Assembly (NCBI GenBank): GCA_947488345.1
Contig: CANKZQ010000002.1
Coordinates: 1 to 64,000 of the forward strand
Length of the DNA stretch: 64,000 nt
Direction: 5' to 3'
From: an uncultured Flavobacteriaceae bacterium
Lineage (GTDB): Bacteria; Bacteroidota; Bacteroidia; Flavobacteriales; Flavobacteriaceae
The position numbers and the translations under genes were made by a program. Shown piece after piece: positions 284-2,619 of this stretch (position 1 is the first letter of the stretch; every line of letters starts with the position of its first letter). The notes under the pieces were generated by a model. The model was not told where the DNA came from. It saw only the letters and a program-made list of their open reading frames with translations, and did no database searches.

Positions 284-865
284 TTACCCATGCACTTTCG
301 CCGTATTTCCTCTAGTTTTCATCATTTCTGCTTCATAGGCCAATAAATCATTCCATTTTTTATCAACGATTTCTCGATCTTGGTACTGTCTAGCGAAACC
401 TAAAAATGTCGTATAATGATTTGCCTCAGAAACCATTAGGTCTTTATAGAAGTTAGATAGTTCTTGATCTTCAAGATTTTCAGAAAAGACTTTAAAACGT
501 TCACAACTTCTTGCTTCTATGAGCGCTGCCACGAGTAAACGCTGAATCAGCGCTTCATTACGATCTTTGGTCTTTGTAAAAAATGATTGCAAATTTTTCG
601 CATAACTATTGGTTTGTTCTCTACCTAAAGTCATACCTCTGGCCACCATTAAATCATGTACCATTTTAAAATGTTCCATTTCTTCAATAGCTATTTTACT
701 CATTTCGGTAACCAATGCAGTTTCTTCCGAATAATTAATGATAATTGAAACAGCATTTGATGCCGCTTTTTGCTCGGCAAAAGCATGGTCAGTTAAAATT
801 TGCTGTAGATCATCTTTAGCGATTTCAGCCCACGAAGTTGCTGTTTCAAATTTAAGTCCAAGCAT
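284..865 (-). CDS. miaE: tRNA-(ms2io6A)-hydroxylase MiaE
   Basis: Predicted diiron monooxygenase that hydroxylates the isopentenyl group of ms2i6A at tRNA position 37. The 193-residue length fits the family. The ferritin-like four-helix ligand set is visible: Glu31, the EMEH motif with Glu62 and His65, Glu117 in a LIEARSCERF helix, and Glu147/His150 in SEANH. It is the last gene of a minus-strand run after dnaX, with 26 bases between them, so it is probably co-transcribed. Function is assigned from the motif set and overall similarity; the hydroxylation itself is family knowledge. Confidence 0.9.
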   Translation of the reverse strand: MLGLKFETATSWAEIAKDDLQQILTDHAFAEQKAASNAVSIIINYSEETALVTEMSKIAIEEMEHFKMVHDLMVARGMTLGREQTNSYAKNLQSFFTKTKDRNEALIQRLLVAALIEARSCERFKVFSENLEDQELSNFYKDLMVSEANHYTTFLGFARQYQDREIVDKKWNDLLAYEAEMMKTRGNTAKVHG

Positions 866-891: not shown

Positions 892-2619
892 TTAAAGATC
901 AAGTTTGAAAGTATTTTTCAACTTTGCTAATGTCTTATTTTTCTCTAATAGTTTGTTGTACTTTTCTTGAGGAGTATAGGCGAATTTCTTTTCATTTTCT
1001 TCATTTACAATACTCTTAAAATCAACACTATAATTATTGAGTTTTTCTCTTAAGTATCGCAGAAGTTTTGGCTTCATTTTGTTGAATTCAGCTTCCATCA
1101 TACCATTTGGGAAAACAATCTCAATATTTTCAACATTTACTTTAGGTCTATTGGCGTTCATAATAGACGCAATAATTTTTTCACCGTTTTTATTCAACTT
1201 AAGAATATAATCATCCCATAGTTTTAAAAATTGGCTTTCAGTAAATGGATCTTTTGGTAAATCTTCATGATTCTCGGTCGTTTCAACAATTGATTTCTTA
1301 GTGGTAGGCTTCTTATGAATACTATTCAGCGACAGAGCTGAAGAACGTCGACGCCCCTCCTGAACAACCACGGGCTTTGTCTTTTTCTCTAATGAAATCT
1401 TTGTTGGTGTTGTTTTAAGAGGTGATTGGACAGAGGGCTTAGAAGCTATGTTTTTCTCATTTACATTTACATCCAATTTTTTCTCTGTAGGATTTTTTGA
1501 AGTGAGTCCTATAAAATTGATGGAAGGTATTATGAAGCTTTTAGATTTTTTTTTTTCGCCCTCATAACTGATAGAGGCCAACTGCATCAAGGTAAGTTCT
1601 ACTAATAAGCGCTGATTTTTACTCGTTCTATATTTCAGATCACAATCATTAGCCATATCTATGGCGGAAATCAAAAAAGACATAGAGGCCTTGATCGCTT
1701 GCTCCAAGTATTGTTTTTTTGCAGTATCGCCTACCTCTAAAAGATCTAGTGTAGCTTTATCTTTAGCCACAAGTAAATCTCTAAAATGAGAGGCTAAACC
1801 ACTTATAAAATGATGTCCATCAAACCCTTTACCTAGGATTTCATTAAAATGAATGAGTACTTGAGGAATATTATTCTCAAGTAATAAATCTGTAGTTTTA
1901 AAGTAAGAATCGTAGTCGAGAACATTTAAATTCTCAGCAACGGCTTGTCTGGTTAACTTGTTTCCAGAAAAACTCACGACTCTATCAAAAATAGATAGTG
2001 CATCTCGCATTGCCCCGTCAGCCTTTTGCGCAATTACGTGCAACGCGTCATCGTCGGCATCAATATTTTCTTGAGCTGCAATTTGCTTTAAATAATTCTT
2101 AGCATCTAAGACATTAATTCTCTTAAAATCAAATATTTGACAACGAGAGAGTATGGTTGGAATAATTTTATGTTTTTCGGTAGTCGCTAATATAAAAATA
2201 GCATGTGCGGGTGGCTCTTCTAAGGTTTTTAGAAAAGCATTAAATGCCGCCTGAGATAACATGTGCACCTCATCAATGATATACACTTTATATTGACCCG
2301 TTTGTGGCGGAATTCTAACCTGATCGGTCAAACTTCGTATGTCGTCTACTGAATTGTTAGATGCAGCATCAAGCTCAAAAATATTAAAGGCAAAATCCTC
2401 ATCAGGATTTACCTCCTGACCATCTTGGTTAATACGTTTGGCTAATATTCTTGCACATGTCGTTTTTCCTACACCACGAGGGCCTGTAAACAGAAGTGCT
2501 TGAGCAAGGTGATTGTTCTTTATCGCATTTTCTAAGGTATTTGTAATGGCCTGCTGTCCAACAACATCGTTAAATGTTTGTGGACGATACTTACGTGCCG
2601 ATACAATAAACTGTTCCAT
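892..2619 (-). CDS. dnaX: DNA polymerase III subunit gamma/tau
   Basis: ATPase of the clamp loader that links the replicative polymerase, clamp loader and helicase. The AAA+ core occupies residues 1 to about 350: Walker A GPRGVGKTT at 46-54, Walker B YIIDEVHM at 113-120, sensor 1 ILATTEKH at 143-150 and the SRC motif near 158-160. A low-complexity Lys/Thr/Ser linker (about 356-460) leads to a tau-like C-terminal domain (about 460-575). The four-cysteine zinc module found between Walker A and the DAASNNSVDD motif in the E. coli protein is missing, as I recall for other Flavobacteriia. At residues 356-358 the codons form an 11-A run where slippage would end translation at once (separate entry). 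Start chosen at the ATG giving MEQFIVSARKYRPQTF. Confidence 0.96.
   Translation of the reverse strand: MEQFIVSARKYRPQTFNDVVGQQAITNTLENAIKNNHLAQALLFTGPRGVGKTTCARILAKRINQDGQEVNPDEDFAFNIFELDAASNNSVDDIRSLTDQVRIPPQTGQYKVYIIDEVHMLSQAAFNAFLKTLEEPPAHAIFILATTEKHKIIPTILSRCQIFDFKRINVLDAKNYLKQIAAQENIDADDDALHVIAQKADGAMRDALSIFDRVVSFSGNKLTRQAVAENLNVLDYDSYFKTTDLLLENNIPQVLIHFNEILGKGFDGHHFISGLASHFRDLLVAKDKATLDLLEVGDTAKKQYLEQAIKASMSFLISAIDMANDCDLKYRTSKNQRLLVELTLMQLASISYEGEKKKSKSFIIPSINFIGLTSKNPTEKKLDVNVNEKNIASKPSVQSPLKTTPTKISLEKKTKPVVVQEGRRRSSALSLNSIHKKPTTKKSIVETTENHEDLPKDPFTESQFLKLWDDYILKLNKNGEKIIASIMNANRPKVNVENIEIVFPNGMMEAEFNKMKPKLLRYLREKLNNYSVDFKSIVNEENEKKFAYTPQEKYNKLLEKNKTLAKLKNTFKLDL
1546..1556 (-). promoter_or_regulatory. 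A11 slippage site inside dnaX
   Basis: On the coding strand the codons GGC GAA AAA AAA AAA TCT give eleven consecutive A's at residues 355-358, just after the third clamp-loader domain ends (LVELTLMQLASISYEG). Re-reading one A gives AAA ATC TAA, a stop after one extra residue (about 359 aa). Skipping one A gives AAT CTA AAA GCT TCA TAA, a stop after five residues (about 362 aa). Thermus thermophilus dnaX makes its gamma form by transcriptional slippage on a poly-A run, and E. coli by -1 frameshifting on an A-rich site. The position, run length and close stops in both frames support the same role here; no product has been observed. Confidence 0.65.

Follow-up and report, generated by a model that had tools for sequence, protein, structure and literature searches.

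A poly-A run behind the clamp-loader core of dnaX in Bacteroidota as a probable site of programmed transcriptional slippage

The window analysed here, which is the whole stretch of 64,000 nucleotides, carries close to its start a dnaX gene whose open reading frame scores 706.5 bits against the NCBIfam profile PRK14971 and 386.9 bits against TIGR02397. The gene and its features are as follows.

892 to 2619, minus strand: dnaX, DNA polymerase III subunit gamma/tau, 575 aa (open reading frame and profile matches)
1567 to 2619, minus strand: clamp-loader core, domains I-III, common to both predicted products
1558 to 1579, minus strand: predicted RNA hairpin directly 5' of the A run, CCTC (1574-1577) pairing with GAGG (1560-1563), plus G1579-C1558
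1546 to 1556, minus strand: putative slippage run of eleven A's (A11), made of the AA of GAA and three AAA codons, residues 355-358
1541 to 1543, minus strand: TAA closing the frame reached by +1 base, 359-aa product
1530 to 1532, minus strand: TAA closing the frame reached by -1 base, 362-aa product; within ATA ATA in the tau frame
892 to 1545, minus strand: tau-specific C-terminal part

Against solved structures, the core matches the gamma/tau subunits of E. coli clamp loaders. In the dnaX coding strand, A11 fills GAA AAA AAA AAA, and its codons (355-358) begin four residues after the end of Pfam domain III (PF12169, residue 351), exactly where an earlier note on this DNA had placed it, just after the clamp-loader core. 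The same note had claimed near stops in both other frames, and this is confirmed: counted from the sequence, one base gained gives 359 aa ending in KKKI and one base lost gives 362 aa ending in KKNLKAS, the two off-frame stops lying 2 and 13 nt past the end of A11. The run is the sole one of at least nine A's on both strands of the 64-kb window, in which 3 overlapping matches to nine or more A's were observed against a mean of 16 in shuffles. Merging of overlapping matches leaves 20 distinct A/T runs of at least 10 in the 3.8-Mb genome, 4 of which reach at least 11; apart from the one in dnaX, two of these four lie outside any ORF of at least 60 codons, and the last is at the extreme 3' end of a 151-codon ORF. 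Runs of A10 are less special in the same genome, with about nine other ORFs carrying one on the coding strand, approximately half of them no more than 40 nt from the start.

Related dnaX genes were gathered in genus, family, order, class, phylum and named-genome sets, which overlap in lineage. Genes with a core match below 150 bits, genes whose core ended before residue 300 and duplicates judged by a 600-nt core stretch were dropped; a fragment (G147) and two further genomes (G238 and G266) were also left out, and one family gene (L137) is truncated at a contig end. A full or split dnaX was obtained from 15 of 17 genus genomes (G009 and G013 gave only paralogue matches), 77 of 80 named loci were kept, and genomes with no match at the search cut-offs applied numbered 4 of 120 in the family, 2 of 60 in the class, 2 of 30 in the order and 2 of 61 in the phylum. 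All 15 dnaX genes found in the genus, our own included, have A9-A11 at the same place, and the run, for which the earlier note had proposed a comparison with close relatives, is unbroken in each of the 14 others. Runs of at least nine A's were also found in 111 of 113 further family genes (88 of them exactly A10), 24 of 26 genes of the order set and 42 of 53 of the class set (22 and 40 of these, respectively, close to the end of the core), 32 of 52 of the phylum draw and 67 of 77 from named genomes.

Across the whole sample of 336 distinct genes, in which run length ranges from A8 to A13, 291 carry A9-A13 and 222 exactly A10. The run falls between -50 and +110 nt of the core end in 287 of the 291; the other 4 sit 122-158 nt past the core and may represent another site. 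Within the core, by comparison, nine or more A's occur in only 1 of 336 genes (L194), and none were counted in a tally of 282 genes whose run lies close to the end of the core. Even among genes with GC3 of at least 0.75, 9 of 15 have exactly A10, although AAA accounts for 24% of their core Lys codons and their longest core A run averages 4. Counted by family codes or names, some of which may overlap because coded and named families stand side by side, 72 of 96 have the run in at least one gene, and the other 24, Bacteroidaceae included, have none. The earlier placing of the trait in Flavobacteriaceae therefore holds for that family but is too narrow, the trait being spread over the phylum, and an A10-recoded dnaX had in part been described in 2013.

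Altogether, 45 of the 336 sampled genes lack the run, Bacteroidaceae among them. Several Bacteroidales (L332, L358, L343, L370 and others, including Bacteroidaceae) have an in-phase tau and no run, and may thus produce a single DnaX, or another short form by other means. Two small family genomes, L136 (G036) and L273 (G111), have lost the run or retain A8 with tau still in another frame, and GAA AAG TAA in L136 might be a ribosomal -1 site. Outside the class, L288, L291 and L293-L301 (family codes f70 and f72) carry A9-A10 approximately 43-74 nt past the core with tau mostly out of phase, while L302, of the same code group, has tau in phase; these lineages are perhaps the Chlorobi cases of Antonov et al. 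2013.

The stops behind the run are maintained as well. In 118 of 124 family genes, both other frames meet a stop within 20 nt, compared with 25% of core codon positions. A hydrophobic pair followed by Pro comes after the run in 94 of 126 family genes, and the codon test in the family was made on these 94. In 92 of them the spelling of the motif closes the +1 frame with TAA or TAG; where the first residue of the pair is Ile it is written ATA in 79 of 81 genes, versus 24% of core Ile codons. Considering these two counts, we read the stop-preserving choice of codons as probable selection on an overlapping signal. The conservation of the near stops at the synonymous level, which had been put forward as a check, is thus found at the codon level in the family.

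The frame of the tau part could be assigned in 326 of the 336 genes (10 had no clear frame). It is in phase with the core in 244, as in the window, and out of phase in 82, with 73 in which the two parts would be joined by a -1 shift or the gain of a base and 9 in which the opposite would be required. Five of five Flavobacterium rows in the table of named genomes are shifted, four of them the same way, with gamma as the in-phase product of the DNA and tau in the -1 frame. On a FastTree tree of the 336 core proteins, the frame has changed at least 45 times, 20 of these within the own-family sets, both counts being minima that depend on the tree. Some of the shifted frames may be assembly errors. 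The shifted tau parts nevertheless remain open over approximately 600 nt, and differences at codon positions 1, 2 and 3 sum to 3799, 2855 and 5390 in 45 nearest-relative comparisons drawn from 80 shifted genes (a few pairs being counted both ways), with 34, 30 and 93 in one near pair, which suggests that the tau part is under purifying selection where tested. Since tau often lies in another frame than the core, these relatives are hard to explain without recoding. A10 is dominant regardless of frame, in 159 of 205 in-phase and 59 of 79 shifted genes with a run, and because of this equal dominance the length of the run itself seems to be selected. It may match the RNA-DNA hybrid of RNA polymerase, which is 9-10 bp as described in PMC5009743.

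Directly 5' of the run, the window RNA is predicted to form a hairpin with a 28-nt minimum free energy of -7.2 kcal/mol and a z of -2.8 against synonymous shuffles, reaching P 0.05 but not 0.01 with 200 shuffles. Its 3' arm includes the GAGGG that the earlier note had pointed out two bases 5' of the run; the motif is present, and its reading as a Shine-Dalgarno (SD) stimulator was ruled out, as it pairs with the upstream CCTC and the ribosomes of Bacteroidia do not use SD signals. In the family, a scan with 28-nt windows gives a mean z of -2.27 where the window abuts the run; a shift of four bases upstream brings it to +0.5, downstream values are positive, and a weaker dip (z -0.8) lies at 60-70 nt upstream. 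Perfect stems of at least 7 bp ending no more than 4 nt from the run occur in 67 of 126 family genes compared with 3.5% of 8055 core windows, and where the hairpin is present its 3' arm touches the run or ends a few bases short of it. The commonest family hairpin is CUCUAUCA-CUUU-UGAUGGAG followed by A10, and in other members the arms differ in sequence but remain complementary, as in CUCCCAA-AGAU-UUGGGAG, CAUCAC-GGCCA-GUGAUG and CCAUCG-ACUU-CGAUGG.

In the other sets, the mean z of the abutting window is -1.76 (class), -1.67 (named), -0.92 (phylum) and -0.73 (order). Genes at P<=0.05 against synonymous shuffles number 67 of 111 in the family, 7 of 14 in the genus and 24 of 67 among named genomes, and outside the family 11 of 40 in the class, 4 of 22 in the order and 3 of 32 in the phylum; with one gene per family outside the own family, 17 of 70 reach this level and 23 of 70 rank among the top 5% when set against windows of their own core. 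Low folding energies 5' of the run were also seen in Rufibacter, Hymenobacter and Mucilaginibacter. No good hairpin was found in the genus members L003, L005, L010 and L016, the first of which (G015) is one of the two nearest relatives and has a z of -0.7. On these predictions, the hairpin appears strong in the family and weaker and patchy elsewhere.

Pairing in a fixed register covers 66.3% of cells in comparison with 59.0% in 500 shuffles (maximum 62.0%), and 75 cells are compensatory against a shuffle maximum of 60. However, the 28 pair types are not above the shuffles (maximum 30), and sliding one arm by 2-3 bases still yields 68-72 compensatory cells, though pairing then drops to 47-50%, so that covariation by itself provides moderate evidence for the hairpin. 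Of the 126 sequences 96 are distinct, and much of the resemblance is therefore inherited. As a control, we examined the 19 other runs of at least ten A's in the same genome, and one has a comparable 5' hairpin. It lies in a pspC-like gene (L226:355-2190, minus strand; G000:C1, around 428529) with Pfam PspC, PspC transmembrane and toast-rack domains, whose A10 has a strong 5'-adjacent hairpin of -8.4 kcal/mol. This A10 is not at a conserved place in the family homologues, 13 of 28 of which carry A9 near nt 550 with weak 5' folding (-0.2 to -4.7). It is possible that the pspC-like gene is a second slippage gene.

We consider it probable, at roughly 0.8, that the A run of dnaX is a site of programmed transcriptional slippage from which both a tau-like and a gamma-like DnaX are made. 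While ten or eleven A's are transcribed, the 9-10 bp hybrid would consist of rA:dT pairs only. Immediately behind it, the emerging RNA would in most family members fold into a hairpin within the exit channel. Both would favour realignment, so that a fraction of the mRNAs would gain or lose A's. In-phase mRNAs would give the full-length tau-like protein, and translation of out-of-phase mRNAs would end a few codons past the run, yielding a gamma-like protein of approximately 360 residues that comprises no more than the AAA+ core and domain III. Selection would hold the run near ten A's and preserve the stops that close the two other frames, together with the hairpin in many lineages, leaving the DNA-encoded in-phase product rather free to drift. 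The earlier reading of a slippage that makes a short DnaX is supported by the sequence tests. From the observed run, stops, hairpin, frame drift and purifying selection on tau where tested, we infer that slippage takes place at some rate, that the hairpin has a part in it and that the clamp loader incorporates the short protein.

The tau C-terminal part is predicted to be a compact alpha-beta domain, with a mean pLDDT of 79 over 160 residues and better values for the last 120. A fold search with this part gave weak matches to chains from entries that, judging by their titles, are DnaA domain I, DciA and E. coli tau (best E 0.018); none was under E 0.001, and several had poor rmsd (13-16 Å for the DciA and tau chains). 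A profile search of the same part against solved structures gave only chance-level matches. As the C-terminal part is modelled as a compact domain, the short form would be the AAA+ core devoid of its presumed partner-binding domain.

The same pair of products could in principle be made by ribosomes. In programmed -1 frameshifting of the E. coli type, ribosomes would slip on A_AAA_AAA/AAN and reach a stop, giving gamma, or enter the tau frame where the frames are reversed. A runs are slippery for ribosomes too (PMC3711429), unpublished E. coli-like signals in Chlorobium dnaX are cited in PMC5009743, and the lopsided drift agrees with this explanation in that 73 of the 82 shifted genes fit a -1 shift, although they fit one added base equally, and 9 need the opposite shift. 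The +1-frame stop is maintained too (92/94). As described in PMC5009743 and PMC3711429, the E. coli signal is A_AAA_AAG with a downstream stem-loop and an SD-like stimulator. In comparison, among 86 in-phase family genes with A10 the run is followed by T in 48, by G in 25 and by C in 13, and A_AAA_AAG is therefore not favoured. In the window, the run is followed by T and the heptamer is absent, and there is no SD-like stimulator at the E. coli spacing, which is approximately 10 nt upstream, as GAGGG lies 2 nt from the run. A downstream stem-loop was not found in the family tested as a set, its windows folding more weakly than the core average with 2 of 124 in the top 5%, though downstream windows of the phylum set dip slightly, to z -0.5. 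Stimulation by SD pairing is unlikely to work here because the ribosomes of Bacteroidia hide the anti-SD and block such pairing, according to PMC9976891; frameshifting in prfB is described as low in F. johnsoniae (PMC12421855); and, both in a 70S system and in human cells, -1 frameshifting is described as attenuated by an upstream hairpin that abuts the slip site (PMC6321510). We thus regard ribosomal frameshifting as an unlikely explanation of the dnaX pattern in its entirety, and a ribosomal share beside transcriptional slippage is possible.

Under replication slippage, the run would be a mutable contingency tract by which some cells express tau and others do not, and both the range of run lengths from A8 to A13 and the 45 or more frame changes on the tree are what such phase variation might leave behind. 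However, dnaX is a core replication gene, related species share their frames (as in four of the five Flavobacterium rows), and the codon-level retention of both stops and the adjacent hairpin would serve nothing, which makes this explanation very improbable. We give equally little credence to the absence of any recoding, according to which a Lys-rich linker would acquire A runs by chance in AT-rich genomes, where off-frame stops are common likewise. Among the core Lys codons of the family, AAA does make up 76%, and A9-A10 is also found in other genes, but runs of at least nine A's are present in 291 of 336 genes at the site and in a single gene inside the core, the run persists at high GC3, and in 82 genes the out-of-frame tau part keeps a long open frame and, where tested, shows conservation. 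Chance in AT-rich sequence was rejected on the window shuffles, codon choice, GC-rich genes and counts of core runs.

Transcriptional slippage at dnaX has a precedent in Thermus thermophilus, where RNA polymerase slips on nine A's and gamma and tau are made at about 1:1 (Larsen et al. 2000, as reported in PMC5009743 and PMC1088944). The Bacteroidota genes resemble it in having a sense-strand A run, tau in phase, stops in both other frames and, as we predict here, gamma from out-of-phase mRNAs; the window has at least nine A's in the dnaX sense strand with stops in both other frames shortly after. They differ in that their run, A11 in the window, is A10 in most cases as opposed to A9, and in that it is retained over much of a phylum with a drifting frame. 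A hairpin adjacent on the 5' side is not mentioned in the descriptions of Thermus dnaX in these two papers. For the hairpin, the closest parallel is the IS630 transposase of Roseiflexus, in which a nascent stem-loop stimulates slippage (Penno et al. 2015, as reported in PMC5009743). There, too, an inverted repeat lies directly 5' of the slip motif and is placed in the RNA exit channel, and in the window the predicted 1558-1579 hairpin lies directly 5' of the run. The Roseiflexus element, however, has a T5C5 motif and hairpin-dependent slippage that removes one base, while the present case concerns a homopolymer in a cellular replication gene.

Recoded dnaX genes with A10 are already partly known. 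Antonov et al. 2013 (PMC3711429) listed 17 two-ORF dnaX genes, nine of them with A10, named Chlorobi species and proposed transcriptional slippage for the A10 genes; the species of that set may include Bacteroidota. Our 73 of 326 genes with tau in the -1 frame resemble it, whereas the window gene, with tau in phase, is not of the two-ORF -1 type. As described, that set comprises -1 differences only, and the in-frame form, the opposite shift, the maintained stops, the phylum spread and the hairpin are different from it. For the hairpin, the in-phase A10 form and the phylum spread, we found no description in the literature searched on dnaX slippage and frameshifting, which mostly excluded subscription papers, and found nothing on dnaX in the available text of PMC3971599. 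E. coli dnaX is the same gene and yields the same pair of products, as predicted here, but by a signal that differs in its A_AAA_AAG end, its downstream stem-loop and its SD pairing.

Considering the whole sample, we lean, at little better than even odds, towards a broader scenario in which early Bacteroidota acquired a terminator-like element, a nascent hairpin abutting an A10 whose length matches the RNA-polymerase hybrid, through which polymerase slippage determines the proportion of two replication proteins. The run and the hairpin would be under selection and the frame would not, so that dnaX would have no privileged frame, and tau and gamma would have been swapped as the DNA-encoded product many times without the loss of either. 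If this holds true, RNA-polymerase slippage would be a common Bacteroidota route to the clamp loader rather than a Thermus oddity, and many lineages would carry a testable stimulatory hairpin at dnaX, whose natural variants could reveal how a nascent hairpin and hybrid length set slippage. Such a case fits a phylum whose ribosomes do without Shine-Dalgarno signals. In such genomes, those of Flavobacterium included, dnaX may risk being annotated as a frameshifted gene or as a single product.

Further repeats were observed near the start of the window. Downstream of a MiaE-like gene (284 to 865, minus strand), positions 35-102 and 132-200 are two imperfect copies of approximately 70 nt, 84-87% alike and 97-98 apart, with CTCC/GGAG parts and T runs. 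Just 3' of the same gene, an inverted repeat at 190-249 has 18-nt arms that are 94% complementary and 24 nt apart, and is perhaps a terminator.
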